From Porphyridium purpureum (lineage: Eukaryota > Rhodophyta > Bangiophyceae > Porphyridiales > Porphyridiaceae): DNA of 64,000 bases. The stretch lies in assembly GCA_008690995.1 (NCBI GenBank), contig VRMN01000001.1, positions 558,001 through 622,000 of the forward strand, read 5' to 3'. The notes below the pieces were generated by a model, which saw nothing but the letters and a program-made list of their open reading frames with translations, searched no databases and was not told the origin of the DNA. Below are positions 10,169-32,100 of this stretch, in pieces. The position numbers and the translations under genes are program-made. The stretch's first letter is position 1; each line of letters starts with the position of its first letter.

Positions 10169-10248
10169 CCAAACCGAAAATTGCTTGTATGAATATATAA
10201 TTACATTAAAATTTTCGCTCTCACCACAGCATCGACGTGCTCGAGAAA

Positions 10249-10370
10249 GCCCCTGTGGCGCAGTGGTATGACGCAAACCTTTTGGAACGCCTGAGGGTTT
10301 ACGGTCTTGGTCGCTCTAGCGCAGCAGCTTTACACGCTGAAGGTCATGGGATCGAAACCCATCAGGAGTA
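10249..10370 (+). tRNA. tRNA-Val(UAC) with a probable D-loop intron
   Basis: A tRNA-Val folds from 10249-10370 if about 47 nt inside the D-loop are removed. Acceptor 10249-10255 pairs with 10363-10369 (one C-A mismatch, one G-U); D-stem GCGC 10258-10261 pairs perfectly with GCGC 10319-10322; anticodon stem 10324-10328/10336-10340 (outermost pair G-A mismatched) with loop TTTACAC and anticodon TAC at 10331-10333; variable loop AGGTC; T-stem ATGGG/CCCAT perfect with loop ATCGAAA. Box A (TGGCGCAGTGG) and box B (GGATCGAAAC) both match consensus. There is no intron at the usual 37/38 site. The anticodon arm through variable loop matches eukaryotic tRNA-Val closely. D-loop introns are documented in nuclear tRNAs of Cyanidioschyzon. 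The acceptor mismatch is the main weakness; a pseudogene is possible. Confidence 0.72.
10268..10314 (+). other. Proposed D-loop intron of tRNA-Val
   Basis: Removing roughly these 47 nt leaves a D-loop of normal size (AGTGGT plus TCTA). The segment can form a hairpin, AAACC (10275-10279) with GGTTT (10296-10300). Exact splice points are uncertain by a few bases; I could not derive a clean bulge-helix-bulge by hand. Confidence 0.5.
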
Positions 10371-10420: not shown

Positions 10421-10428
10421 TTTTTTTT
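10421..10428 (+). terminator. T8 tract, likely RNA polymerase III terminator
   Basis: A T4 run at 10415-10418 and a T8 run at 10421-10428 follow the tRNA-Val by about 45-50 nt and would stop Pol III. The rest of 10371-10717 holds no gene that I can support. Confidence 0.55.
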
Positions 10429-14190: not shown

Positions 14191-17100
14191 ATGGACGACG
14201 CGGAGCCGGCAGTGGTCTCAGCACTGCGCGAGATATGGCGCGCAGCGAGTGTGCAGGATGTGACGGGTGTGAGCTGGGCGCGCGCTCGTGCGGAGGGCGC
14301 GCACAGCCGAGCGCAGATGGTGGCGTGGCTCGCGCAGCACGTGACGCAGGAGCTCGCCCAGGGCATTGTGCAGCAGCCCGACGCCCCGGTGGAAGAAAAC
14401 CAGAACACGCATGCAGTCCTGCTGGTGCGTAGGTTGTATGAGGTGCTGTGCCACCTGCGCGAAATGGAGATTCTGGCGCTGTGTGCGCACATTCAACAAT
14501 TCGCTCGCGTAGCATTGGTGCGAAGCTCAGTGGCTTCGAGCCATGCGGTTGCTCCTTTGGATGCGTCATCATTTCCTCTTTGGAGACACGTGTGGGCTAT
14601 TCTCGCGCGAGCAGGTGCCGTGCTATCAGGTCTGCCCGCATTCGGCGCCATGGTGCTTGATTTGCTGAGTGTGTTGCACAGAAATAATACTGACTTGGAT
14701 ATTCTGCGCTGCATTGGATTCAGAGAATGCGCGCTACTCGCATTTTCATGCGGCGCGAGGCTGCGCCATCGGCTGCCGTGCGACCTCTTACTTCTCTCCG
14801 CGTCGACTTTCCAGTCGCACGCGCTACACGATCACGCAGCGAACTCGGAGAAAGCGTATTCGCGCATAGCGCTTGGATACATTTGGGGGAATGGCGCCAT
14901 CATGCCAGGATGCCTCGATTCAGACCTTGAACTGGAATCCGTCCACGGTGATTTGGACCCGTGGACGGAATTCTCAGAGGCGGAGAAGTGCCGCGGAACG
15001 GTGCTGGGTCCTCATCCAGACAGTGCGGAAAGCAGCAGCACAATTGATATTCAGCGAGTAGATAGCGATCATGCGTTCCATGAGGAAAGAGAAATCAGGG
15101 AAGCGTATCGGCTTGGCGGGACTCTCGTGGTATCGCATGTGTCCATCCCGCTTCCTCTGCACGCCTTGGTGCTTCCCATGCACGAAGCTTTGCCGGGAGT
15201 GCGGAATGATTCCGGGTCACTTAGCGGCCGGCGTTCGGACGCAAACAAGGCTGCGGCGACTTCTGGTCGTCCCGCAGACACTTTTATTCTGACGGGAGAC
15301 TTTGAACGCGCACTGCAGGGCTTGGTTCAGGCGGCGAGTGTGGGGCGACCTACTTTGCTCTACGGGCCCGCAGGCAGCGGTAAGACTGCCCTGCTCCGGC
15401 ATCTGGATACAGCACGACAACGGCATGGCTTTGCGCCAATGATGAAGCTGCACGTGGACGGCATGTGGTACAATGAGGACGAGATGAAGGCGCTGCTTGG
15501 CGCAGTCGTCCCTGTGGGCGCTGGCAACTTTGAATGGCGCGCAGGCCCCATTGGGCAGGCTATCATGGACGGAAGAGGCTTGGTGCTCGAAGGTGTGAGC
15601 GGGGAGTCTGCGCTGGCGTCGCTCAGTGCGGGCACCCTTTTGTTCCAGCTCACGGAGCTTCGTCCTGGCGGAATGATAATGACCAGCGGCAACGGCGAGT
15701 GGATCACCGCGGCGCAAGGTTTCTTTCTTGTTGTTACGCAAACCATCTCCTCCAGTACTGGCGCAGATGTACTAGTACACAGTCGCCAGGGCAAGAATCA
15801 CACATCAGCGCACGCGCATGCGCTCGCCTACATGCACATGCACCCCATGGGTGGGCGAGTCAGCGCCTTCTCGTGGCTTCCAGTGCCACTTGCTGGCCTG
15901 AGCGACGAACAGACTCGCACGGTCTTGCTGGCGCGGTTCCCGGCACTCGAACCGGCGTTGGATCGTATTCTTGTCAGCGTGCACAATGTGCGAGCCGCAC
16001 TCTGTGGAGCAGCAGTGCGTCTGGAGCGAACAGGTTTGGACAGCTCGGTGCGCGTGCCGGGTATGCGAGAATTGGTGGCGTTGTGTGGCCGTATCGATGC
16101 TCTGCGCCTACAACAACGTCTCGAGCCAGAGCTCGCTGCATGTGAATCGGTGGATGTGCTTTCATGCTGGCCTCTTTCGCCCGAGCTCAGTACGCGCTTA
16201 GTCTCAGCTGTGTGTGACGCATGGAGCCTCCCGCCTGTATTTGCGCGGCAGATAAATTCAACATACAAGCCGTCCATTCTATGCGTGTGCAGTGCTGGTG
16301 GCTCCGGTCCAAGTCTGTATCCAGGTACAGAATCGGATCCGCTTCATGCAGTCGATTCGTCATCAGATCCGAAGCCGCGTTGGGACATGCATGTCGGGCG
16401 CGCGGTGTGCGCTCTTGGTGGCGCCGCACGCGAAGCAGCGGCCACCGCAGCAGCAGAGCTCGATGATGCACAAGCCGCTAGTCTCGGTGAGTGGCTGATG
16501 CTGCATGGAACCACCAAAGCCGGACCAGCTGGTACTGGGTTTTCGTGTACAAGCGCATCCTTGCGACTGCTCGAACGGCTGATGTGCTGCGTACAACACA
16601 AGGAGCCGGCCTTACTCGTGGGTGAGTCCGGCTGCGGCAAGACAACATCGGTCCAAGCGATGGCTCGGCTTTGTGGCGCCGAGCTGGTGGTGCTCAACAT
16701 GTCGCAAAAGACAGACGTTGCCGAATTGGTGGGTGGCTTTCGGCCGGTAGAGCCCGAGCGGGACGTCCACGAACTCGTTGTACTGGCGGAGCCGCTGCTT
16801 GCTGCGTCGCTCAGCGTGCACAAGAATGCCCGCTTTTTTGACGCACTGCGGAAAGCTGTGCGAAAAAAGCAATACGTGCGCGCGGTGCGTTTGCTACAGG
16901 GAGCGCTCGAGCAGCCTCAATTGCAGTCTCAGCTACGTGAATCGCAGGATCCGATCGTCCGACGCAGATTTGCAAGCATTCAGTCCGACTTGCAGGCGCT
17001 CGCGTACCACTTTGGTCCGCAGCTCCAATGGCAGCTGCAAATGGAAGAGCATGAGAAGGGCACTGGCAGCACGGAGGACGCAACCGATGAAAAGGATAGC

Positions 17101-20100
17101 GCACGTGTTGTGAAGCGGCGGCGTACATCAGAAAGCGAGTATCACCAGAGCTCGTCGGAGCGCCGGATTGTATTCAAGTATGCACGTGGCGTGCTTGTCG
17201 ATGCGATGCTGAGTGGCGCGTGGGTATTGCTGGACGAGATAAATCTGGCTTCGATGGAAATGCTGGAGAGCCTGATCGGTTTGCTGGATGAGGGTAGCGT
17301 GCTGCTTCCAGAAGGCGCAGCCACGGACGAGTATGGTAACATCACGGCGGTGCAAGGTCGTCATTCTCAGCGTGCAGGGCTCGCGGAAAAACGATGCGCC
17401 GTGCAAGCTCACCCCGACTTTCGCATTTTTGCAGCTATGAATCCTCCGCTGGACGTCGGTAAGAAGTCGCTTCCTGTCGCGCTGCGCTCGCGCTTCACGG
17501 AGTTCTACGTTCACGACGCCCTGGCGATGCATGATCTTGTGCTCTTTGTCCATGACAAGTACTTTGGGAAAGGCCACACTGAGTCCGGATCTCCTGTGGA
17601 GCGCCAGCAGCGCAAAACCCTCTGCGAGCACGTCGCGCGATTTTTTACGGAGGCACGGGAGCACGCATTGACGAAGCTTTTCAGTGCGGACGGCCGCGCG
17701 CCGCTCTTCAACCTTCGATCACTTTCGCGTGCGCTCGAGTTTGCGCGCGCTCTCATCACGCAAGCGCCGACCATAGCAATTGGCTTGCATGCTGCCGACC
17801 GCATCTTGCTGCACGAGGGCGTTCTCCTGTCGTTCGCGTCACCTCTCCCTCCGACGTCGCGTGAATGGGTGGTAGGATGTTCGACGAAATGGATTCTACT
17901 GGGAGGAGACGGACAAAAGGGGCAAGCTATTCTACGTCTTTCGTCTCGTCCGCTAGCCGGATGGCTACAGCCAAAGGCAGACTCTCGCCATGCATGCATC
18001 CAAGTAGAGGGATTCTGGCTGGACTGCTACACGTTGCCCGAGTCGCTTGATGCGCGTTCGATGTCCACAGACCTGAATACTTCGCGGAAGGAGCCGTTTG
18101 TTGTGACTCCGAGCGTGAGTCGGGTGCTAGGCGACGTGGCAAGGGCGCTGTGTGCAGGCACAGACCGTCTTCCAATCTTACTGCAGGGGCCGACGTCAGC
18201 TGGTAAGACGTCACTCGTGAGGCATCTTGCGACGCTAACGGGACACCGCCTGGTGCGAATCAACAATCACGAGCACACGGACATGTCTGAGTACATCGGA
18301 GGCTACGCGGCGTCGGCGAGCGGCTCCTTGGTTTTCCGCGAGGGTGCCCTACTGCGAGCGGCGCGCCGTGGTGATTGGGTTGTTCTCGATGAGCTCAACC
18401 TTGCGCCATCTGAAATTCTCGAGGCACTTAATCGCTTGTTGGACGATAATCGCGAGCTGCTTGTTCCGGAAACAGGCGAAATGGTGAAGGCACACCCGCG
18501 CTTCGCATTGTTTGCCACGCAGAACCCGCCGGGTCTGTACGGCGGACGAAAGCCTTTGAGCCGTGCGTTTCGCGCTCGTTTCATTGAATTGGAGGTTTTT
18601 GAGCTTCCACATTCAGAGCTTGAGCTCGTACTACAGCAGCGTGCGAATTTGCCGCGTTCATTTTGCGCAGCGATGGTTGCTGTTATGCAGCAATTGCAAC
18701 GCCGCAGGCAGACTTCGCAATTGTTCCAGGGTAAGGATGGCTTCATTACGCCGCGCGATCTATTTCGCTGGGCGAACCGCAGACCAGCATCAAAGCTCGA
18801 GCTGGCCATGCACGGGTTCTTTCTCCTGGCGGAGCGCGCACGCAGCGAATCCGAGCGAGCTCTTGTGCGTGAAGTGCTTGTTTCGACCATGCGAGTGGAT
18901 TCTGCGGATCTGTCAGACTCCGAGCTGTACCGGCTGCACGAGCCACAAGAACCTGACCTGCATGCGCAAGTTCGACCTTATTTAGACCGGCTGCGTGCAC
19001 TGTGCAACAGCATGGGTATTGCGCTTACGTTGCCGATGAGGCGCACGCTGGTGTTGCTCCTTTACGCCACGTTGAACGCTGAGCCAGTTCTATTGGTGGG
19101 CGAGACTGGTACGGGCAAGACAACGGCGTGCAAGTTGATCGCCACGCTGTTGGCACAGACGCGAAGCGAGGCAGATGCGCGACAGCACGACGCCTTGATC
19201 GAGCTGAACTGCCACAAGCACACGGAAGCTGCGGACTTTTTGGGCTGCTATCGCCCGAACAATGCGGCTGGAAGCCGTTCGGAGAGCAAGAGCTTGTTCG
19301 AATGGCACGACGGCGCATTGTTGCGAGCAATGAAGAGCGGCGCTCACTTATTGTTGGACGAGATCAACATGGCTGACGAAGCGGTCGTCGAACGAATGAA
19401 TTCTGTGTTGGAGCCGGGCCGCTCTATCATGGTAACCGAGATGGGAAGTGCTGTCGACACTGATGATGTTCTTGTGGCACATGAGGCTTTCCGCATTTAT
19501 GCCACAATGAATCCTGGTGGTGATTTTGGCAAAAAGGAGCTCTCTCCGGCGCTGCGCAATCGCCTTACCGAGATCTGGGTGGAGCCTGTGCGCTCCGAGC
19601 CCGAACTCGGTGAGATCGTTCGCGAGATTTTAGGCGCAGACAAGACCGACAGTCTGCTCGAAGTCGGAATGTGCATGGCTCGTGTCATGACGCGCATGTG
19701 GTCTCTATCGTCTTCCGCGCAGCTGCCGGAACATGAAGTTCATGCTTCAGAGGCCCGCCATTCAACGTGGGATGCTTCAGCGGCGCTCTTGTTGCCAGTG
19801 CTGACAACGCGCGACCTGCGTGCGTGGCTCGACTTTGTATCTTGTGCGGTTAAGCCGTGCCAGAATGAGAATGGGAGAGGGTTGGACGCTTGGAGCGCTT
19901 TTGCGCACGGCGCTTGTCTTGTGTTTATCGACGCGCTGGTGCCTACAGGAGTTTCACTTGGGGCTGCCAAGGCTCGATTTGCGGTACAACTCGCCTTGGA
20001 TTGTCTCATTGACTGCTTGCCAGCCACAGGTATGGGCGAACACATCCAAGAAAAAGTGCGCACAATTTGCTCACATTCGCTGGGTCCAGCCCTAAAGGAC

Positions 20101-23100
20101 GTTTCGTTTAATGTGGCCGCGGAGTTGGATGCTGCGCAAGATGATACAAACTTGGTCAGAGCGGTTGACTGTGCTGGTGAGCATGGCGCAGAAACGGCTG
20201 CATTACGTTTCGTTTGCGTCGGCCCGTTCCAAATTCAGCAGCGCCATCCGCCTGAAGTCGTTGCTCCTTCCCATGCAGCGGACGAAGCCGAGCTCGAAAG
20301 CGCATCAACGAGAATTTTTTCCCAGGACGACTACTCGCTTTCAGCACCATCCACGCGTGCAAATGTGTTCAAGATTGCTCGCGCGATGGTTCTGGGTCGT
20401 GGTATATTGCTGGAAGGCGCACCTGGTATTGGCAAGACCAGCGTGGTGGTCGCTCTGGCGCGTTTAACGGGCCAAGAACTCTTGCGGGTCAATTTGTCTG
20501 AATTTACGGAAATGAGCGATTTAATCGGTTGTGATGTTCCGGGTGCCAAGCCGGGCATTTTTGATTTCAAGCGTGGCCCCCTACTAACCGCACTGCAGCG
20601 GGACTGCTGGATTCTACTGGACGAACTCAATCTCGCTTCGCAGTCGGTGCTCGAAGGCCTCAATGCACTCCTGGACCACCGCAAGCAGCTGTACATCCCG
20701 GAGCTCAATTCAACAGTTCATGCCGGTGCAAATTTCCGGCTCTTTGCGACCCAGAACCCATCGAGTGACGGTGGCGGTCGCCGCAGTTTGCCAAAGTCGT
20801 TTTTAAACCGATTTACTCGCGTGAGTATGCAAGCGCTGTCTGACCAAGACTGTGAATGCATTTGTAGCGCGCAATTTCCCCACCTTTTGCGCTGCAGCGT
20901 CAGGCTAGGTGGAGCAGACGAGCACTTGCGAGCCGAAGAACCCGCTATTCCATTCCTCGTACGCACCTTTAATGAGCTCAATCTTCAGCTTGGTGACGAT
21001 GGATCGATGGAGCGCTTAAATTTGCGAGATTTGTTGCGATGCTGCAGGTTGCTCGTCACATGGATGCCGCCGCACGTGCCAGCGACGGGCCTGTCTGATA
21101 TGGACGACAGCATGACCTTGAAGAGGACGTTGGAGGTTCGAGATGATTCTGTCTTTGCGGCGTTTGACGTGGTGGTCATGGCACGGTTGGGCAGTGCAGC
21201 GCAGCGAGCTCAAGCGTTCCATGTACTGAGAAACTGCTTGCACTCGCGAATCGATGACGAAGATACCACCGGTTCTGTAAAGCTGCAACCACCTGCACCG
21301 CTAAAGCCAGAAATAATGATTCTCAACGGGTCGCCGCATTTCGTGATTGGCAGGGCCGTACTACCGTGTTCAAGCGCAGGTCGCGAGGTATATGATTCGT
21401 GGAGAGCAATAGAACGGACTTCCGCAGGCTCGCTGGGTAGCCCCGCGCCGCCCCTGCTGAGCCTGACGTCTCAGCGACGTGCGTTGCACGCAGTGGCACT
21501 TGCTGCCCAGCATGGCTGGCCCGCATTGGTTGTAGGTGGTGGCAGTGAAAGTTTTGGGCGGGGGGTCCCGCAGACGCGAAAGAACGGGAAGGCGGCGCTG
21601 ATACGCGCACTAGCTCTTAGTGCCGGACGCGAGTTGCTCGAATTGGCGCTTGGCGTTGGCGGCGTTGATGCCAGCGATTTGCTCGGTGCATACGCACAAG
21701 TCAATGTGCGTTCCGAGCTCTTGAACATTGGTCGCGGACTTTCGTTTCTTATGGATCGCTTTCAGGCGGCCGCACTTTGTCTTGTTGATAACAAAGTCTT
21801 GGAGGATCGGATGATTCCGAGTAGCGAAGAGCCTGTGGAGGTTCTGGCTCGTTTAGAGCGTGAGCTGCGCGTGTTTGTCTTACAGCTTTCTGAGGAAGAC
21901 ACGCTTTCCAAAGACGATAAAGCTGGTACACAGCCTCACGCTTTCCTTGACGAAGCAGCCGAAGAAGTTCTTCTCACTCGGAAAGCCGTGGCGATGGTCC
22001 AGGATGTAGCGAGGCTGTGGCAGAATTTGAAAGGATTCGGCTTTCTAGCTCTTTCAACTGTGCAGCCACGACTTGAAAAGCTGACAGAGCAGAGCGCTCG
22101 CATGCTCCAACTTGTTGGAGCTGCGCCGGGAAGGACCTCGGTTCTTTTTGAGTGGAGGAAAAGTGCGTTGCTGAATGCCGTCGAAAACGGTGATTGGGTC
22201 CTGATTCGACATGTTGACTCTATTCCGCCCGCATCGCTCGATCGCCTCAACCCGCTTCTGGAAGAGCCTGGCGCCGTCGTGCTTTTGCCCGAGGCGCCGC
22301 CGCCGCCGAGACATCAAGACCAGTGCTCAGATACTGACAGGGAGACCAGCACGCGAACAGAAAGTCTGGAACACGCACATGTCAGAATTCATCGTGACTT
22401 TCGGCTCTTCATGACAGCGCGATCAGCCATTGGGCTGTCCAAGGCTCTGCGAAATCGGTGTGTGGAGGTGTGTCCGGACGCCTTTGATGATTACGAGTGC
22501 GGCGACGATGTCCGCTCGAATACTCTAGGACCGTCTAACATTTCTAGCCATCTAGAACTGACCAGTGTCGCTTCAGCGGCTGGTGCTCCATTGCATGCAG
22601 CTCAACAGTTTGAGCTAGTTTCTTCGCGCGTTAGATCAGAAGACGAGGAGGGGGAGGATCAAGCTTTTGACTCGGCAGGACCGATTTTGAGCGGCATGGC
22701 TTGCAGTGCACTGCGTTTGGCCGAAGCCGCCGCGCACGATAGCCGGCTGGTGTATGCACATGGCAATGGGAGCTCAGACAGTGCGCTGCGCTTTGCCTTA
22801 CGCACGTGCAGAGTGAGTGACATGCGTTTGCGCGTCGCTTCGCTTCTCGCGCGATGTACCAATGCGCGTGCTCTGGGCGAGATTTTTAGGCTGCAGCGAT
22901 CAGATGCGCTGCAAAATGGGCACTTCTTCGAGCGACTCAATATGCAGCCAACGTTTCTACGGGATATGTTGTCTTCGTCGTCGAACGAGTATGGACATAC
23001 GACGCGGGGTGTCCAGATGCAAACACTGCAGGTGGCACAGCTCGTGCTGTGCGTTTGGCGGTCGTGGTTGAGATATGGTGCGAAAGACCATGCTCTCGTT

Positions 23101-26100
23101 TGCCAATCGTTGCAGGCCTTGCAAAATGCGCCGGAAAATGAAGACTGCAGGTGTGTGAGCGCGCAATGCGTTTGGTATGATGTGACCGCGATGCTGCTTC
23201 GCATAGCGAGCGCTTTTTCGCACGAACAAGTTGGTCAAGCCCGCATGAGCCTTTTGGTAGACATCATCGTTGATACGGCGCAGGTCGCGGAATTATGTCG
23301 CGCGCTCTCGCGTCGCGACGCAGCGCAAAAGTGGCGCTCCGTGGGTGCTTTTCTCGAAAGGATGACTTTGTGCGCATCTCGCCTGCACACCGGACGATGT
23401 GCGAGCGGCGAGTGTCAAGTGTGTGACGCGGAGCCCGAGCTTGACGGAATGTTTCAGAGCGAAAAGGATTTGGTGCTGCATCGCGATGCCGAAAAGCGAT
23501 TTGCCTACTTGAGCATGCCCAGCAACCCCAGTGGGGAGGGTGCTGACGATGGCGGTGATGATGCCTTGTGCGTGGTGCGCAAATGTAGCGTTGAAAAGTA
23601 TGCAGCGCTACCAGCAGGCGCAACTGACAAGCAGCGACTGGTTCCCATGGAGAGCGAAGGACGCGGTCATGACTGGGAACACGACCAGGCTGTTCAAGCC
23701 CGCATTCGAACTCACATGTTTTATGCTGACGCCGCAGGTTGGTATGTTGTCGAGAACGCATTACTGCTTGTTTCACGAACTGCCGCAGCACTTGACTGGA
23801 GCTCAGGTGCGTCGGAACACGCCGACTGTCTTGTCGCTTCCTGCTTTGTGCACACGAAGATGCCGGGCGACGAAGGTAGCATTCTATCGTACGCGGCTGG
23901 TAAGAACGATGTGATGGACGAGATCTGTGAGCTTTACTTCCCCTCAAAGCCGCGCCTTGCGCTGCGCATTCTCTGGCCGTGGGTACGAGGAGTTGCGAGT
24001 CTGGTATGCGCGCTTATGGAGCTCGCCCACATGTGCAGTGATGGTGCAAAGAACCGCTTTGGGTCATTGGCGCAGCGGAATGCGGACTTTTGCACGGCCT
24101 CATCCAATCGCATGAGCGCTGCAGTAGAGGCTATACTCCAGTCCCTCCCGGAGCTAGTGGCTCTCTTCCGTTTCGCTTTGATTGTGTTTCCCAGTGCAAG
24201 AGTTGCTTCTTTTCGGACCCATGCTCGTCGCAGCCCTTCTGATCTACAGGTGTCACAATCGACTTCACCATCTCTCGCAGAAATGATTGCATCGGTAGTG
24301 CACTTGCATGAGTCGTGGGTACAGCACCCGCTCGTGCATGGAAGAATGCAGGCTCTTTCAGAGGCCAGCGAGTGCGAGGCTTGCCATGACGTAGATCATT
24401 TCTGCAATTCAAGGCGGAGCACAGCTACGCGAGCACTTTTTCAATATACGACGCTTCGCTCGGTGGTGGTATCACTGATGGATGACCTGAAGCTAGTTCT
24501 TTCTGATCTTTTGGAAGCACCAGTATTAGCTTCGCTCCGTACGCGCGAACAAATCAACCCATGGAGCTCAGCGCAAGTGTGCAAGTTTCCAAAAGTGCGT
24601 GACGCGGCAACGATAAGCCTTGAGCGCAGATTCTGGGCGTTGTGTGACAATATGGAGGTGTCCTTGGATTGTCAGGCGGATTCAACCCAATCAGGGCGTG
24701 GACGTGATGCTCCTCGAATGCTCCTTCGCAAGGGCGCGCTGCAGATGCTCATGCAAGCCGCCAGCACGCTTCTCTTTATGCGAACTCCCCGCCCCAGTGA
24801 TCATGGCTCGCTCAGAGTCGCGCAGGAGTCTCTTGCACGGTTGTTGGAACATGTGGAGGCGGCGATACCGTCTTTTGCTCCCCAAGGACCCGACGTTGAG
24901 ACCATGCAGGCTAGCACGACAAGCGCTGTTGTCGTCGCAGCACAGGCTCGACGTTTGAACGCGGCTGGAAGTCCAGAGTCGACACGCAAGCCCATGCTGT
25001 TTGGCCAGCTTGTGCTTCGGTACATTCTGGATTCCCTAATCGCCGGCCATGCGGCCAGCCTCGGCAGCACAGGTGATCAAAGCGATGACGGTGAAAATGG
25101 CGGCGGGAACTCCTTGAATTGGCAGGCTAGCAACCAGCGAAAGACTCTTTTTGTGCAACTGTGCCTGAGCGCGCCAACGTGCGCGCCGATGCGAGAGTTT
25201 CTCGCGGTCCAGCATGCTTTGTGGAGGACTGAGCTGCGAGAAGGAAATGTAAACATCTCGGAACTGGGCAACGATGACGAGGAAGCTCGTGCCGCTTGGA
25301 TGGCAGGCCTACGGACGTGGTTGGTCGGTCAGTCGCATTCACACCCGGAGGAATCAAATGCGCATGCGCACTTGGTCACAGACTTGTTTTGCGTGTCGCG
25401 CGCGAATTTCTGGTTCGGCACCGAGGCGCCATGGATTCGACTGAGCAGCGTGCATCGCTGCTGGACCCTGCTTACATGCGTCCTGGCCCTTTCGGCTGAT
25501 AAGAACCGCATCAGCGGTGGAGCGCACGGCAAGAAATTGCTAGATAGAAAGGCTCGCGCACAGGAAGCGTCACTGCTTTCCTTGGATGCATTCGTGACCG
25601 ACTCCGTTTGGACTTCGACGCTGCTTGCGCTAGGAGCGGACTTTGATCCAGATTGTTGTGGACGTTGGAACGGGCGCGCGAGCGTTGCGGCGCTCTGTCC
25701 AGATGGCCATGAAATGGTTTTGCAGCGACAGCAGCCGCACCACCAGCAGGGCAAGGGCCGTTCAAACGAGGGCTCACCCGCATTCGCAAGCATGTTTATG
25801 ATGGGACGGCATATGTTTTCGGTAGGTATGCGTAGCATGGAAAATTCGATGCCATCGTCTGTGCTTGATGCCAGTAACGTCGCGCTTGCGCTTGCAGAGA
25901 TGAACCATCTGACGGCGGTGCGCCGGCACGTGGCGCGGTGCTTGAACGCTACACTCGCATGCACTGACTCGAACCGTCGCCTTGGAGATCGAGCTTACAA
26001 CTCTAGCGAAGAAGCCGTCGTCGCAAACACATTTTCTGCTGCGTCCGCAATGAGCTCTGCCGCGCAGTGGGCAGCACAATCGCAAGGACGTACTGACGAT

Positions 26101-29100
26101 GAAAGTCAGTATCAAGCTTTTCAAGGAGAATGTGAGCGCATTTTCCGCACATGTCAAAGCCGGGGAATGGCCATTATAGACGGGGTTGCTTCGCTTGTCA
26201 GATCATGTACAGACGGCGATACCGAATCTGACCGACTGCATCAAGCGGCAGTGGCACGATGGGTAGGTCAAGAACAAGGCCTGCAACTCACGCTGAGCAC
26301 AGCGCTCAGTCGCATACAGTCATCGCCTGTGTGGCGCGGCTACAGCGTGAGCTCAAAATTCTTGCAAGCTGCCGAGCAAGTCCGAACGGGTCTGAAGTTG
26401 GCCACGGGCGCGGTTGTGGAGCTTGGATCGTCAGGTAAGCAGCGAGCATCAAACTCGTTGAGTGAACTCAGGGAGCTGGTGCGATTCCTCACGCATGATC
26501 CGAGTCTATTGATCATGGTGAATTCAGGCGCGGCGCGCACTCGGGACCGCCTACTTTTGAGCATGGCAGATGACCGTGGTGGTAGACTTGGACTGCGTGA
26601 TACAGATCGTGCTCCGCTGCTCGTAGCTTTGCTTTCTGCATACGCTGCGTCGCTGCTGTCAGAATCTCATGATAAGGAAAGATACTGCCCACGCGCTTTG
26701 CGCAATGTCTCGCAGCTGTTTAAACGGTTGGTTCTTGCGTGGGACGATGAAGAGCAGTCACGGCGCATCGAGCAGGAAAAGCGCGACGATTTGTACCAGG
26801 CTAGGCGCAGAAGCGCGGCTCAGGGCCCGTCCCGAGATGAATGGAAAGGCAGCATTCAACTAAATGCCCACGACTACCATGCGCAAGAAGATGAGGCCTA
26901 CCTGCAAGAGTTTGGAGCAAACTCGTATGAATACATCGTCCGCTTGGAAATGGATGAAGAATCTCAAGAAGGACTGATGGCCGGTGATTCAAGCGCCGTC
27001 GCGGCGGAGCCGTTGCCGCGCTTTACTGGTGTGGTGGATACTGCCGAGCTTTATCGCCTGTACATGGCTCTTTTCGGACCGCGCAGGAACGATTCACTAT
27101 TCGAGACCGTGCGCGATTCAGCCGTTGTAGTTGCAGACGCACTTCACCACGTGCTTCATCCAGACGGCCCATTCACACGCGCGAAAGTTTTCGCAGAGGA
27201 CTTATGGGATTCCAGCTTGAATAACAGGATGAGTCGCACAGATGCCGCGTCAAACGCTGGAGATGTTGAGAATCTGTGCCGACCATTACTTATTCAGCTG
27301 GCTGCCTCGGAGGTGAGTGTGATGTTGCCGCCGAAACCTGAATTACGTGATGATAGCGATCTTGCAGGCGAAAAATCTTCCGGGAAAGTCGCGTTGAATT
27401 TTTACAAGGATGCAAACGTTCGAGAGATGCACACTGCAGCGCGGAGTTTGGAGGCCCTACTGGCTCGAGTGAATTTGATTTTCAGCGGAATGTCAGGGTC
27501 ACAGCACCCAGTGCTGGAGCGAGTGGCAGCGCTGGCGCAAGCCCTCCTCCGTGCACCGTTCCGCACACCGCTGGGCAGCGTAGTTAGCGCCTTTGAGCTG
27601 CTCCTTCGTGACATGGCTGAGTGGGATAAGAAGTACGGCTCTGCGACAAACGACTCGCGGCTTGACATACCCCGTACCCAGCTCACCCAGCTTGTGATGA
27701 GATGGCGAGGTATTGAGCTTGCATCGTGGAGGCAATTGCTCACAGACCGCGCTGATCAGGCCGAGAAGCGGGGCAAAGACTGGCTTATGCATTTGCTAAA
27801 CACTGTGCTAACCATGGAAAGTGCAGTGGCTTCAGATGATGACAGTGACAGTGAAGACTTATCATTTCCCGTGGCGGCCTCACATGCACGGGAAAATGGT
27901 GACGAAAGCAGAAGCGAAACTGACCTCATTTCAGAGCTCATGGAAACTCTGGATCGCTTTATGTTCTCAAGCCCAGTTGGTGAATTCGAGGTTCGTGTGT
28001 GCGCGCTGGAAGCGTTGTCTGTGCATCTGACTGCATCCTTCTCTACGGATACACATCCGCAGGTTCCGGTGGCGCTGGTAGCGCGGTACGTCGCTGGGCT
28101 GGCACTATACTATCGGCAATTTAGTCATGGTGTGCACGGCGTCCGGCAAATGGCATGGGACGAGGCAACCTCGAAAATGAACGAGTTGGTGAAGTTTGCG
28201 CAGTGGGATCCGGACTCTCAACTGGGTAGCGAGCTGGAAAGTGGAAACATAAGCAGCAATCATCCTGACTACGCAAATCAACGGCAGCTCGAGTACCACC
28301 GCCTGAAAGCACGAGCAGAGAAGAACAAACGGACGCTGCACAAACTCACAAGTGCGTTTGACATTTGCATGCGCCAATCAATCGAGAACGTGGTCAGCGG
28401 TGCTCTGGGGCGCTCGCTTCTTGAGTCCTTCGGCCACGATCGCCACGAGGATACTAAAGCCAACTCAGTGTCGCGCATCGCAGAGAAAACAGCTCGGATA
28501 CAGAAAGGGCATGGTATGCACGGCATCCAGCCAAATACTCTGGTCTGGATGAATTCCGAGGCCTGGCTTGTCGACTTTGACGCAGGCGATCAAGCTGATT
28601 CGACGCAGCAAGCGGAAGACTTGGATCTCAGGCACACAAGGGCGACCGACTTGAGCCGTAAGATTCGCAGAATCGGGATTGGTCTTCATGCGGAACAAAC
28701 ACCAGGGAACGGGCCCCGACTGCTGAGCGTCGCGTTCTCTTGTGCTGAATTGGACGAAGAGATTCACGCACGTGCGGCATTTTTGCGGGACTTAGTTGGT
28801 AACAGTGTCGATCTCAAGCAAAAGGCGCTGAGTGACTTGTTTTCGGCTCTAAAGGCGCTCGGTATATCGCATCATGCCGGGCGGCGCGGTTTCGGCGGGG
28901 AGCAAGCCGACGAGCAGCTGCGCCGTGTACAATGGCTGGCAACGCCGCTTCTTTCGTCGCTCCGTTTCCCGTCGAACGGAAGTTTTTGTTCGGAGAGCGG
29001 TGTTTGTGCGAATTCCCAGAGGCTTCTGGCCATGGACCGTCTTTTTATGACATGCGCGCTCGATTTTCAGAGACTGACGCATGCTGCGCACTCTTCGCAA

Positions 29101-32100
29101 CTGCACTCGGATATTCAGCGTTCCGTTGCAAGCAGGATGTACGGGCACGCGGCGGTGCTGGCTCGCATGATCATGGCCCAGCGCCGTGCGCTTGTTCCAG
29201 CCATGCAACAGCTGCTCAAGTTACAGAAGGCCTCCCGCGAGCTTCAAATGCCTTTGTCATCCAAGGTTTCGATATTGGCGACAGAATCAGCGCGCAAGGC
29301 TTGCACAAAGTATCAGCGCGTGTTGCTTGCGCAGTGTCGTTCACGCCTGCGAATAGTTGCAGCCAGAATGGAATGCGTGCTGAAGGCCCTGCGCGTTCTT
29401 GCTTACGCTGGTAAGTGGATGAGCACAGACAACTTTGGGTCAGGGTTACAAAGCTCCAAGGAGACTGATATGTATCGCGCTCTTGCGCTCATGATTTCGA
29501 AAAATGGCAGGTCGGGTGGCGTCGAAGAGGGGTTGCACGTTGTGATTGCTCAGCTGGTCGACTTGCAAGGCATCGTCTCGGCCGCTCTTCTTAATAGAAA
29601 TGATGCTGGCGCTCTCGAGATCAAAGTTCATGGCAGTGTCGACGATGAAACAGTTCATCAAATGCACGGTGCTCTGATGCGTTCTCGTGAAGCGCTCAAC
29701 CGCTGCCTCGATCAACATGCTTCTGTTGGAACCTCCCGTGCCATTGGAAATGCCAAGTACTTGTTTGTACGTTTTGCGGGCGAGATTCGCTCATTGATCA
29801 GTTCTTACACGGACGAAAAGGAGCGGCACGATGCTTTTGCCATTGACGAGGCGACTCGTGAACGGGTTGAAAACCGAAAGGATCCGGGTCACGCGAAAGA
29901 TTGTGAGCGTTCAGTACGAGAGCAGTGTGAGAGCATTGTTGAGCTTGTGCTCCTGGCTTCCCAAAAGGCGCGCAACTTGTATATGCCTCTCGAAAGTCAT
30001 CATACGGACAGCAGTAACCAAGCGACGATTAAGCCATCTTTTTCGCACACTGGAAATCTTCGCGCCATGCACCAGCAAATTCTGAATGTTTCTTCAGAGC
30101 TGGAGCTCAGTCGCTTGACGGAGCGCCTTCAGGCATTGCGCTTGCGGATGCGTGAGGTATCCCAGTCGGATCTCGCGTCTGCAGTGACACCTGCAGAAAG
30201 TCATAACCACTACGCTTCGATTTGCATGTCTGTCAGGTCAACGGAGCATATTTTGAATCATTTCGTGGGCAGCATTGCCGCTCGCATGCTGGACGGGATG
30301 CTTGCAGCGCACGAAGGTGAGCTGGCTTTGGCTCGGACGCTCATTCGACTGTTCTCAGTGCTTTGTGAAAAGGGCTTTTGTCGCCCGCCGCCAGACGAGG
30401 ACGATGCAACATCCGACAGGCAGGGTGAGGAGGATTGCGAAGGCACCGGTCTGGGAGACGTCGGGGACGGCTCCACAAGAGGTGCAAAGGACATCAGCAA
30501 AGAGATCGAGGATGCTTCTGAATTGCTCGACGCGGACAACCTACAGAAGGATGAAGCGCCGCAGGACGCAGCTGAGACAGGCCGATCGCGACAGCAGGAG
30601 GAAGATGAAAGCAACGCGTCTGAGTCCTCAGGCGTTGAGATGGAGGACGATTTTGAAGGTGACATTGTGGATGAGAAGCAGCGTAAGGATCGCGATCAAG
30701 GCAAAGACGAGGACGACCAGGAAAGCTCCGACGGCGAGGCGGAAAAGCAGTTTGGGCAAGGTAATGCGCTTGAAGAAAAAGTCGACGAAAAGTTTTGGGA
30801 TGGCGACGATGATGCAGATCCTGAAGGTGCTGAGGATTTCGAGGAAGAAAGCGGCACGGCAGATCTTCCCGCTCATGATAATTTGAACAAGGAGCTGGCC
30901 GCAAAATCGCAACACGATACTGAGCGGCAACCTGACAAGATTGGCGACGCGCCAATTTCGGCACCGCGCGATACCAACGATGATCCTAGTGATGGCAAAG
31001 CCGACGACGATGTGGAATCATCTCTCCAATCGAATGATAACATAGACGAAGGCGACGGTGACAACATGAATTCACGTGAGGCGGTGGATGTTGATGGCGA
31101 TGAGGGGATGCCACCTCGCGATGGCGATGCCGATGGTCTTGAAGATGGTGCCATGAGTGAGACGGCTAGTGAAGAGGAAGGAAGTCCGCACGACAAGCTT
31201 GCGAAGGACACTCTGTCAGATTCCGGTAAGCATTCTGACGATGAGGGTGCGCAGGATTCTGACCGACAGGATGAGCAGCAGCCGTTCATGAACCCTGAGT
31301 ATACTCATGAAGGCGAGAAGAGCACGCAAGATCCAGATGACAATAACGAGTCGGAAGACTTCAACATGAATCAAGGAGAAGGGTCTCCGAACGAAGATGG
31401 TGATGTCGACGGCAGTTCTGGATCCTCAGATAGAGGAGGTGACTCCATGCGTGACATGGATGAAGCCGCTGCGGGTGGCGATGAAGGGCTGAGCGAGGAA
31501 CGTGAGCAAAGTGAGCGCAGCTTTTCCGTAGATGGAGATGCTTCGGCGGAGGAGCCACGGGACAGAGCAAACATGGCGCAGGACGCGGCTGGGCGGGCGA
31601 CGACAAACGACGATGTTGCTGGCGGTTCTGGCGTCTGCGAGAGCGGTCTTGGTGCTGATGCTGGTGACGGTGCGCGTGAAAGGGATATGGAAGACGATGA
31701 CACAAATGCAGCTCGCGAAGGTGGCGCTGCAGGTGCGCGCCTTGATGCAGGAGCCGGCAGAAGTGCGCCGTTTGACGCTTCACATAATCATGGGGCCCTT
31801 AATGACCAAGCTGTGTCTGCTGCCGCGCCTAGCGTGGGCGACCGCGGTCATGACTCTGCCACGGAGGAGCAGATACAACCCAGTAAGGAAGAGTCAAACT
31901 ACGTCGACAACCCGAATCCTTTGCGTGTGACAACAGAGCAACTTGGCGAGCTGTGGAAGAAAAAACTGCGCGTTCTCGACGATGATACAGAGGTGACTCC
32001 ACAAGAGAACCGTGGCGGTGACCAGGAGAACACCGCTCCAGGTGAAAGTACAGAAGGACTTGAGGTGGCGTTCGAGCGACACGACAGAGGGGAGTCCGGA

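Follow-up and report, generated by a model that had tools for sequence, protein, structure and literature searches.

The question raised by positions 10249–10370 of the stretch of Porphyridium purpureum DNA analysed here (the window, 64,000 nt) is whether they hold a working tRNA gene interrupted in an unusual place or only the remains of one. Read from the sequence, the segment encodes a tRNA-Val(UAC) whose D-loop is interrupted by an insert of about 50 nt, all parts of the gene lying on the forward strand. The first exon (10249–10267) carries the 5' strand of the acceptor stem followed by UG, the 5' strand of the D-stem (GCGC) and AGUGGU, thus including box A and the D-loop up to U20. The insert, a putative intron of 50 nt (10268–10317), is best placed between positions 20 and 21, and the second exon (10318–10370) provides A21, the 3' strand of the D-stem (GCGC), A26, the anticodon arm with the anticodon UAC at 10331–10333 (read from the sequence and by ARAGORN on the spliced form), a variable loop of 5 nt, the T-arm, the 3' strand of the acceptor stem and A73. 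A run of eight T at 10421–10428, judged by eye, is a probable RNA polymerase III terminator.

The earlier note on this DNA had located the insert correctly and given it a smaller extent (about 10268–10314, 47 nt), and its claim that the GCGC halves of the D-stem pair across the insert holds in full (10258–10261 with 10319–10322, 4/4). The arms had been described as intact, which is true of the T-arm with box B (ATGGG-ATCGAAA-CCCAT, 10346–10362, 5/5) and less so of the anticodon stem, where 4/5 positions pair and a G27.A43 mismatch had gone unmentioned. The acceptor stem pairs at 6/7 positions, C3.A70 being the mismatch and G1-U72 one of the pairs, and position 54 is A instead of U. All 12 scored conserved positions and all pairs of the D- and T-stems are kept in the spliced form. 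The anticodon loop, UUUACAC, is uninterrupted, and the insert lies between the strands of the D-stem, away from the canonical intron site at 37/38. The exons are colinear, with the 5' half upstream of the 3' half, so the gene is not circularly permuted.

In order to place the insert, 86 possible cuts were scored out of 33 points, 21 of them for the stems and 12 for conserved positions. The best spliced form reached 31/33, a score shared by 17 of the 86 cuts, in which the last base of exon 1 lies between 10265 and 10271; the junction 10267/10318 is among them. Since structure alone cannot fix the junction when so many cuts share the top score, 10267/10318 was picked by the so-called 6|1 loop geometry, at which all four central pairs form. 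In a control with 4000 random 122-mers from the same window, taken from both strands and given the same cutting freedom, the maximum was 23/33 and none reached 31.

A different placement, in which the tRNA is real and its D-arm is already complete in exon 1 (GCG-CAGUGGUAUGA-CGC), so that the insert would separate the D-arm from the anticodon stem, is allowed by a near-repeat around the insert (GACGCA at 10270–10275 and AGCGCA at 10318–10323). This form scores 29/33, well above the random maximum, and in another valine gene of the genome, Val(AAC), the insert does sit in the anticodon stem. It leaves, nevertheless, a D-stem of only 3 bp and a G at position 21, whereas the D-loop cuts reach their higher score with a 4-bp stem and A21, and the tRNA-Tyr gene, which also has an AGUGGU loop, permits a D-loop cut as in Val. 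The probability of this placement is considered very low, and the D-loop junction is used in what follows.

Standard tools taken alone miss the gene, because both ARAGORN and Rfam at its gathering score are silent, reporting no tRNA within the window. Rfam covers only the 3' part of the gene (23.9 bits, under the cut-off of 29), and ARAGORN passes over the unspliced gene but recognises Val(tac) once the insert is removed. Elsewhere in the window, positions 14191–33504 form an uninterrupted single open frame of 6437 aa, presumably midasin.

Additional evidence comes from the region upstream. The tRNA and 5S rRNA genes of this genome have in common a TATA-like promoter block, consisting of TATATATA followed by TTTTAATTTTCC and pyrimidines, which ends 5 to 48 nt before the gene. 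The block was drawn from the upstream regions of 17 tRNA loci, including two (L011 and L017) that were not resolved as genes, and a position-weight matrix was built from the 16 loci other than Val; there is a small leak, as the alignment register came from a motif search in which the Val locus was included. With this matrix, the block ahead of the Val gene (10185–10224, forward strand) scored 23.3 bits and ranked first of 127,922 window positions, the next unrelated site having 11.6. The control on spliced structures thus rules out a chance origin of the Val(UAC) structure, as does the promoter scan independently of it, and the D-loop interruption of the gene is confirmed as real. Three 5S rRNA genes (L059, L116 and L123) also have this block upstream, which fits RNA polymerase III, and the Val gene is probably transcribed by this polymerase from the upstream TATA-like motif. 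Strong promoters of the tRNA type also stand before DNA without an Rfam match at gathering score at L052, L053 and L058, the last of which looks by eye like a U6 snRNA; L052 and L058 were, together with L097, among the other promoter-like places for which Rfam gave no match at that score.

A promoter ranked first in the window, together with the conserved positions and the D- and T-stem pairs kept in full, argues against the reading of the locus as a decayed, unprocessed tRNA-Val pseudogene whose D-loop acquired some 50 nt. This reading draws on the C3.A70 and G27.A43 mismatches and on the weak bulge-helix-bulge support at the D-loop, and the earlier note had left room for it on account of the acceptor mismatch, which is indeed present. 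However, a pseudogene would be expected beside extra copies or an intact parent gene, and the searches made found neither. By DNA similarity the gene is single copy in the genome (22,164,627 bases in 46 contigs; 22.16 Mb), with no second copy found. The earlier note had also proposed asking whether another tRNA-Val(UAC) exists, and two patterns were used for this. The first, which looked for a Val anticodon loop of any kind suitably spaced from a T-loop, gave 21 matches (19 in the control), all of which were checked for stems with their flanks, the only tRNAs being the window gene and Val(AAC). The second, restricted to UAC and open to T-loop inserts, gave 12 matches (25 in the control); inspected with flanks, these were the window gene, three already checked under the first pattern, one that was read and seven newly checked. 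None of the 11 other matches was tRNA-like, the ten that were scored having at most 3/5 anticodon-stem pairs each. Within the reach of these two patterns no other Val(UAC), intact or otherwise, was seen; both patterns would pass over a gene with an insert between anticodon and T-loop or with its permutation point at the anticodon, and a further Val(UAC) of such a kind could have been missed, the tRNA catalogue being incomplete. As the source of the insert, group I introns and mobile elements were discounted, given its length of about 50 nt and its single copy, the argument from length against a group I intron being one of general background.

The pseudogene reading is further weakened by the genome-wide pattern, since Val(UAC) is one of many disrupted tRNA genes and no isolated oddity. 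By hand, 24 such genes were resolved, 7 from the list of Rfam matches and 17 from pattern searches: 16 keep the colinear order and carry between one and four inserts each, and the other 8 are circularly permuted. Curation was by eye, and the table is limited to genes that could be resolved, which L011, L016, L017 and L053 could not. Inserts in the D-arm occur in eight genes (Val-UAC, Tyr, Asn, Leu-UAA, Leu-UAG, Ser-GCU, Ala-UGC and Pro-UGG) and in the T-loop in 12 of the 24; the insert of Val(AAC) (L032) is the one in the anticodon stem mentioned above, and a canonical 37/38 intron is the sole insert in Arg(UCU) and Ser(CGA) only. Three or more inserts are found in Asn(GUU) (L111, C44:366983), where the fourth, in the variable loop, is tentative, in Tyr(GUA) (L057, C20:199720), in Leu(UAG) (L079, C2:1104095) and in Pro(UGG) (L050, C11:132488). 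The permuted genes are those for Lys(UUU) (L012), Arg(CCU) (L124), Thr(CGU) (L125), Cys(GCA) (L051), Trp(CCA) (L060), Glu(UUC) (L082), Thr(UGU) (L015) and Leu(AAG) (L089).

After removal of the inserts or reordering of the halves in silico, ARAGORN named 24/24 genes with the expected anticodon, whereas 22/24 were not called when unprocessed and with introns off. The exceptions were Ala(UGC), called with an undefined anticodon, and Arg(CCU), called as colinear, for which reason the permuted reading of the latter is less certain; its colinear T-stem is weak and its promoter lies near the upstream 3' half. When introns were allowed, ARAGORN gave L005 as Lys(ctt) with a 21-nt intron, which was read instead as Arg(UCU) with a 39-nt intron, and assigned L017 to Gly(tcc), taking 123 nt as its intron, a reading that was not accepted and received no replacement. 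Single A.C pairs are the only acceptor-stem mismatches among the 24 genes, and are found in Val(AAC) and Cys(GCA) as well as in Val(UAC), which speaks against taking C3.A70 as a sign of decay; such pairs are perhaps tolerated or edited. The G1-U72 pair is present in 6/24 genes.

As regards the searches behind this set, the Rfam tRNA family gave at least 12 matches at E 0.001, all above the gathering score, and at least 17 up to E 10, these counts being lower bounds because 63 of the 475 first-look candidates were scored. The 17 matches comprised 7 ordinary genes, 7 disrupted ones and 3 that were left out (L011, L016 and L017). The promoter patterns gave 82, 168 and 326 matches (41, 99 and 279 in the respective controls); in the set of 82, 70 places were scanned and 4 were duplicates or already known, while from the sets of 168 and 326, 13 were read among the matches listed. 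One locus, L007 (C43:2065560), is an intact selenocysteine tRNA gene. Taking the copy number, the promoter, the preserved structure and the genome-wide pattern together, a decayed Val pseudogene is regarded as very improbable.

The next point is whether the inserts could be recognised for excision. The layout of the bulge-helix-bulge is general background, and the 6|1 geometry corresponds to that of the canonical anticodon intron: six loop bases, a cut, the intron, a second cut and one loop base. Applied unchanged in each arm, it covered 27 of the roughly 33 inserts in the 24 genes, the rest being in stems, in the variable loop or in longer D-loops. Among 22 loop inserts, 8 had a central helix of 4/4 pairs at this geometry against 0.7 expected from shuffled introns, with a nominal p of 1.5e-7 that flatters the result, because the rule had been spotted by eye on some of the inserts beforehand. 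By arm, the count was 5/10 in the T-loop, 2/4 in the D-loop and 1/8 in the anticodon loop. Five further loop inserts, scored later (one of them seen by eye earlier), gave 3/5 against 0.22 expected. The T-loop inserts show a striking motif, in which TTCG finds its partner, CGAA or TGAA, within the insert. When the D-loop junctions were left free, by contrast, their central helices were no better than those of shuffled introns (7 genes, Fisher 0.78), and the case for the Val intron is not rested on this test, since it gave no support. Bulge-helix-bulge support is, in short, good for T-loop inserts and weak for D-loop inserts.

In the Val gene itself, the loop AGUGGU (10262–10267) can pair with GUCGCU in the intron (10310–10315, forward strand) over six consecutive base pairs including G-U, a candidate central helix reached by 1.1% of shuffled introns; at the fixed 6|1 geometry, the 4/4 helix is reached by 3.8% of shuffles. 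The D-loop insert of Tyr has a central helix of 8 bp (0.26% of shuffles). A constrained fold of the Val precursor holding the cloverleaf, the central helix and the intron hairpin has an energy of -37.0 kcal/mol, and the best unconstrained fold, of -39.7 kcal/mol, has another shape and no cloverleaf; the hairpin that the earlier note had seen in the insert can form when the cloverleaf is kept. The fold energy of the raw precursor is ordinary for its base composition (z -0.29) and uninformative either way. A bulge-helix-bulge at the D-loop insert of Val is thus plausible on these models, and not proven.

The machinery that such a structure would require is encoded in the genome, with two splicing-endonuclease subunits carrying the catalytic domain PF01974 (284 and 505 aa) and one Sen54-like protein (PF12928). 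tRNA endonucleases of known kind recognise the bulge-helix-bulge (PMC3978253). In the mechanism proposed, RNA polymerase III would transcribe the Val gene from the upstream TATA-like promoter, and in the precursor the D-stem would serve as outer helix, with the 3' end of the intron paired to the opening bases of the loop, so that a bulge-helix-bulge results. The Sen2/Sen34-type endonuclease, whose genes are present, would cut at both bulges, and a ligase would then join the exons. Val(UAC) is, in all, very probably a functional nuclear gene of P. purpureum whose D-loop holds an intron of about 50 nt, one that most likely separates U20 from A21 and would be removed by splicing. For the disrupted genes as a whole, the most likely reading is that they are functional and that the tRNA endonuclease would splice their transcripts, the situation known from Cyanidioschyzon merolae.

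The significance of these genes lies in where they were found. Nuclear D-/T-arm introns and permuted tRNA genes of red algae have been discussed mainly for C. merolae, a hot-spring specialist, while P. purpureum, as the earlier note had envisaged for its host, is a red alga outside the Cyanidiophyceae. A 498-residue protein of the present genome (L043) matches chain LRC3 of the P. purpureum phycobilisome entry 6kgx along its full length (1111 bits). In the open-access literature, taken without the 2013 genome paper and Soma 2013, no report of disrupted tRNA genes in Porphyridium was found. A 2023 study that included P. purpureum counted 22–26 tRNA genes in unicellular red algae and 82 in Galdieria, using tRNAscan-SE with default settings, and compared codon usage with the resulting tRNA set; as far as its consulted sections go, it gives the counts with no mention of disrupted genes (PMC10496412). 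If interrupted genes were missed there, as ARAGORN misses them in P. purpureum, the published counts would be too low. With the suite now seen in Porphyridium, one can test if the trait goes back to the origin of red algae, and at what point the endonuclease ceased to be bound to the 37/38 rule. In this respect, we see the chances as evenly balanced that disrupted tRNA genes, including Lys-UUU and Arg-CCU broken in the T-loop and Thr-CGU broken in the anticodon loop, date back to the common ancestor of the Cyanidiophyceae and the mesophilic red algae, as an ancestral state linked with Pol III transcription from TATA-like promoters and with a splicing endonuclease of broad specificity rather than an adaptation to hot acid springs.

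Among known systems, the canonical eukaryotic intron at 37/38 shares with the Val insert the endonuclease family and the 6|1 loop geometry, the Val insert lying in the D-loop instead. Crenarchaeal tRNA introns have a bulge-helix-bulge in the D-, T- and anticodon arms and are cut by an endonuclease that reads it (PMC3978253, PMC6379350); their non-canonical members resemble the present inserts in the arms concerned and in the candidate bulge-helix-bulge, whereas the archaeal enzyme and genome differ. The earlier note had held D-loop introns to be known mainly from Cyanidioschyzon and archaea, a view that is too narrow, since non-canonical D-/T-arm introns, with excision confirmed by RT-PCR, are already described in the nucleomorph of Guillardia theta (PMC4090602). 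The inserts of P. purpureum lie, as there, at non-canonical places of the D- and T-arms, but those of G. theta measure 3 to 24 nt in a relict nucleus, and that of Val about 50 nt in the nuclear genome of a free-living alga.

The closest comparison is with C. merolae, which lives in hot springs, unlike the mesophilic P. purpureum with its larger genome. Introns occur in more than 62% of C. merolae tRNA genes, three of which have three introns (PMC9602550), and Soma 2014 describes ectopic introns, permuted genes whose junctions fall at 20/21, 37/38, 50/51 and 59/60, tRNA genes preceded by TATA-like sequences and followed by T-runs, and homologues of Sen2, Sen34 and Sen54 (PMC3978253). As far as tested, P. 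purpureum is alike in having introns in the D-arm, the anticodon arm and the T-arm (as many as three in one gene in C. merolae), permuted genes with anticodon- and T-loop junctions, a TATA-like element upstream and a T-run downstream, candidate bulge-helix-bulge junctions of varied strictness, and Sen2/Sen34-type and Sen54-like proteins. Most of the permuted isoacceptors found in P. purpureum differ from those reported for C. merolae, and over all genes the overlap is not significant (p 0.24). Nevertheless, Lys(UUU) and, less certainly, Arg(CCU) are permuted at the matching place in the T-loop in both algae, and Thr(CGU) in the anticodon loop, the overlap of the T-loop-permuted pair having a p of 0.003 on the assumption of 45 isoacceptors and with Arg(CCU) counted.
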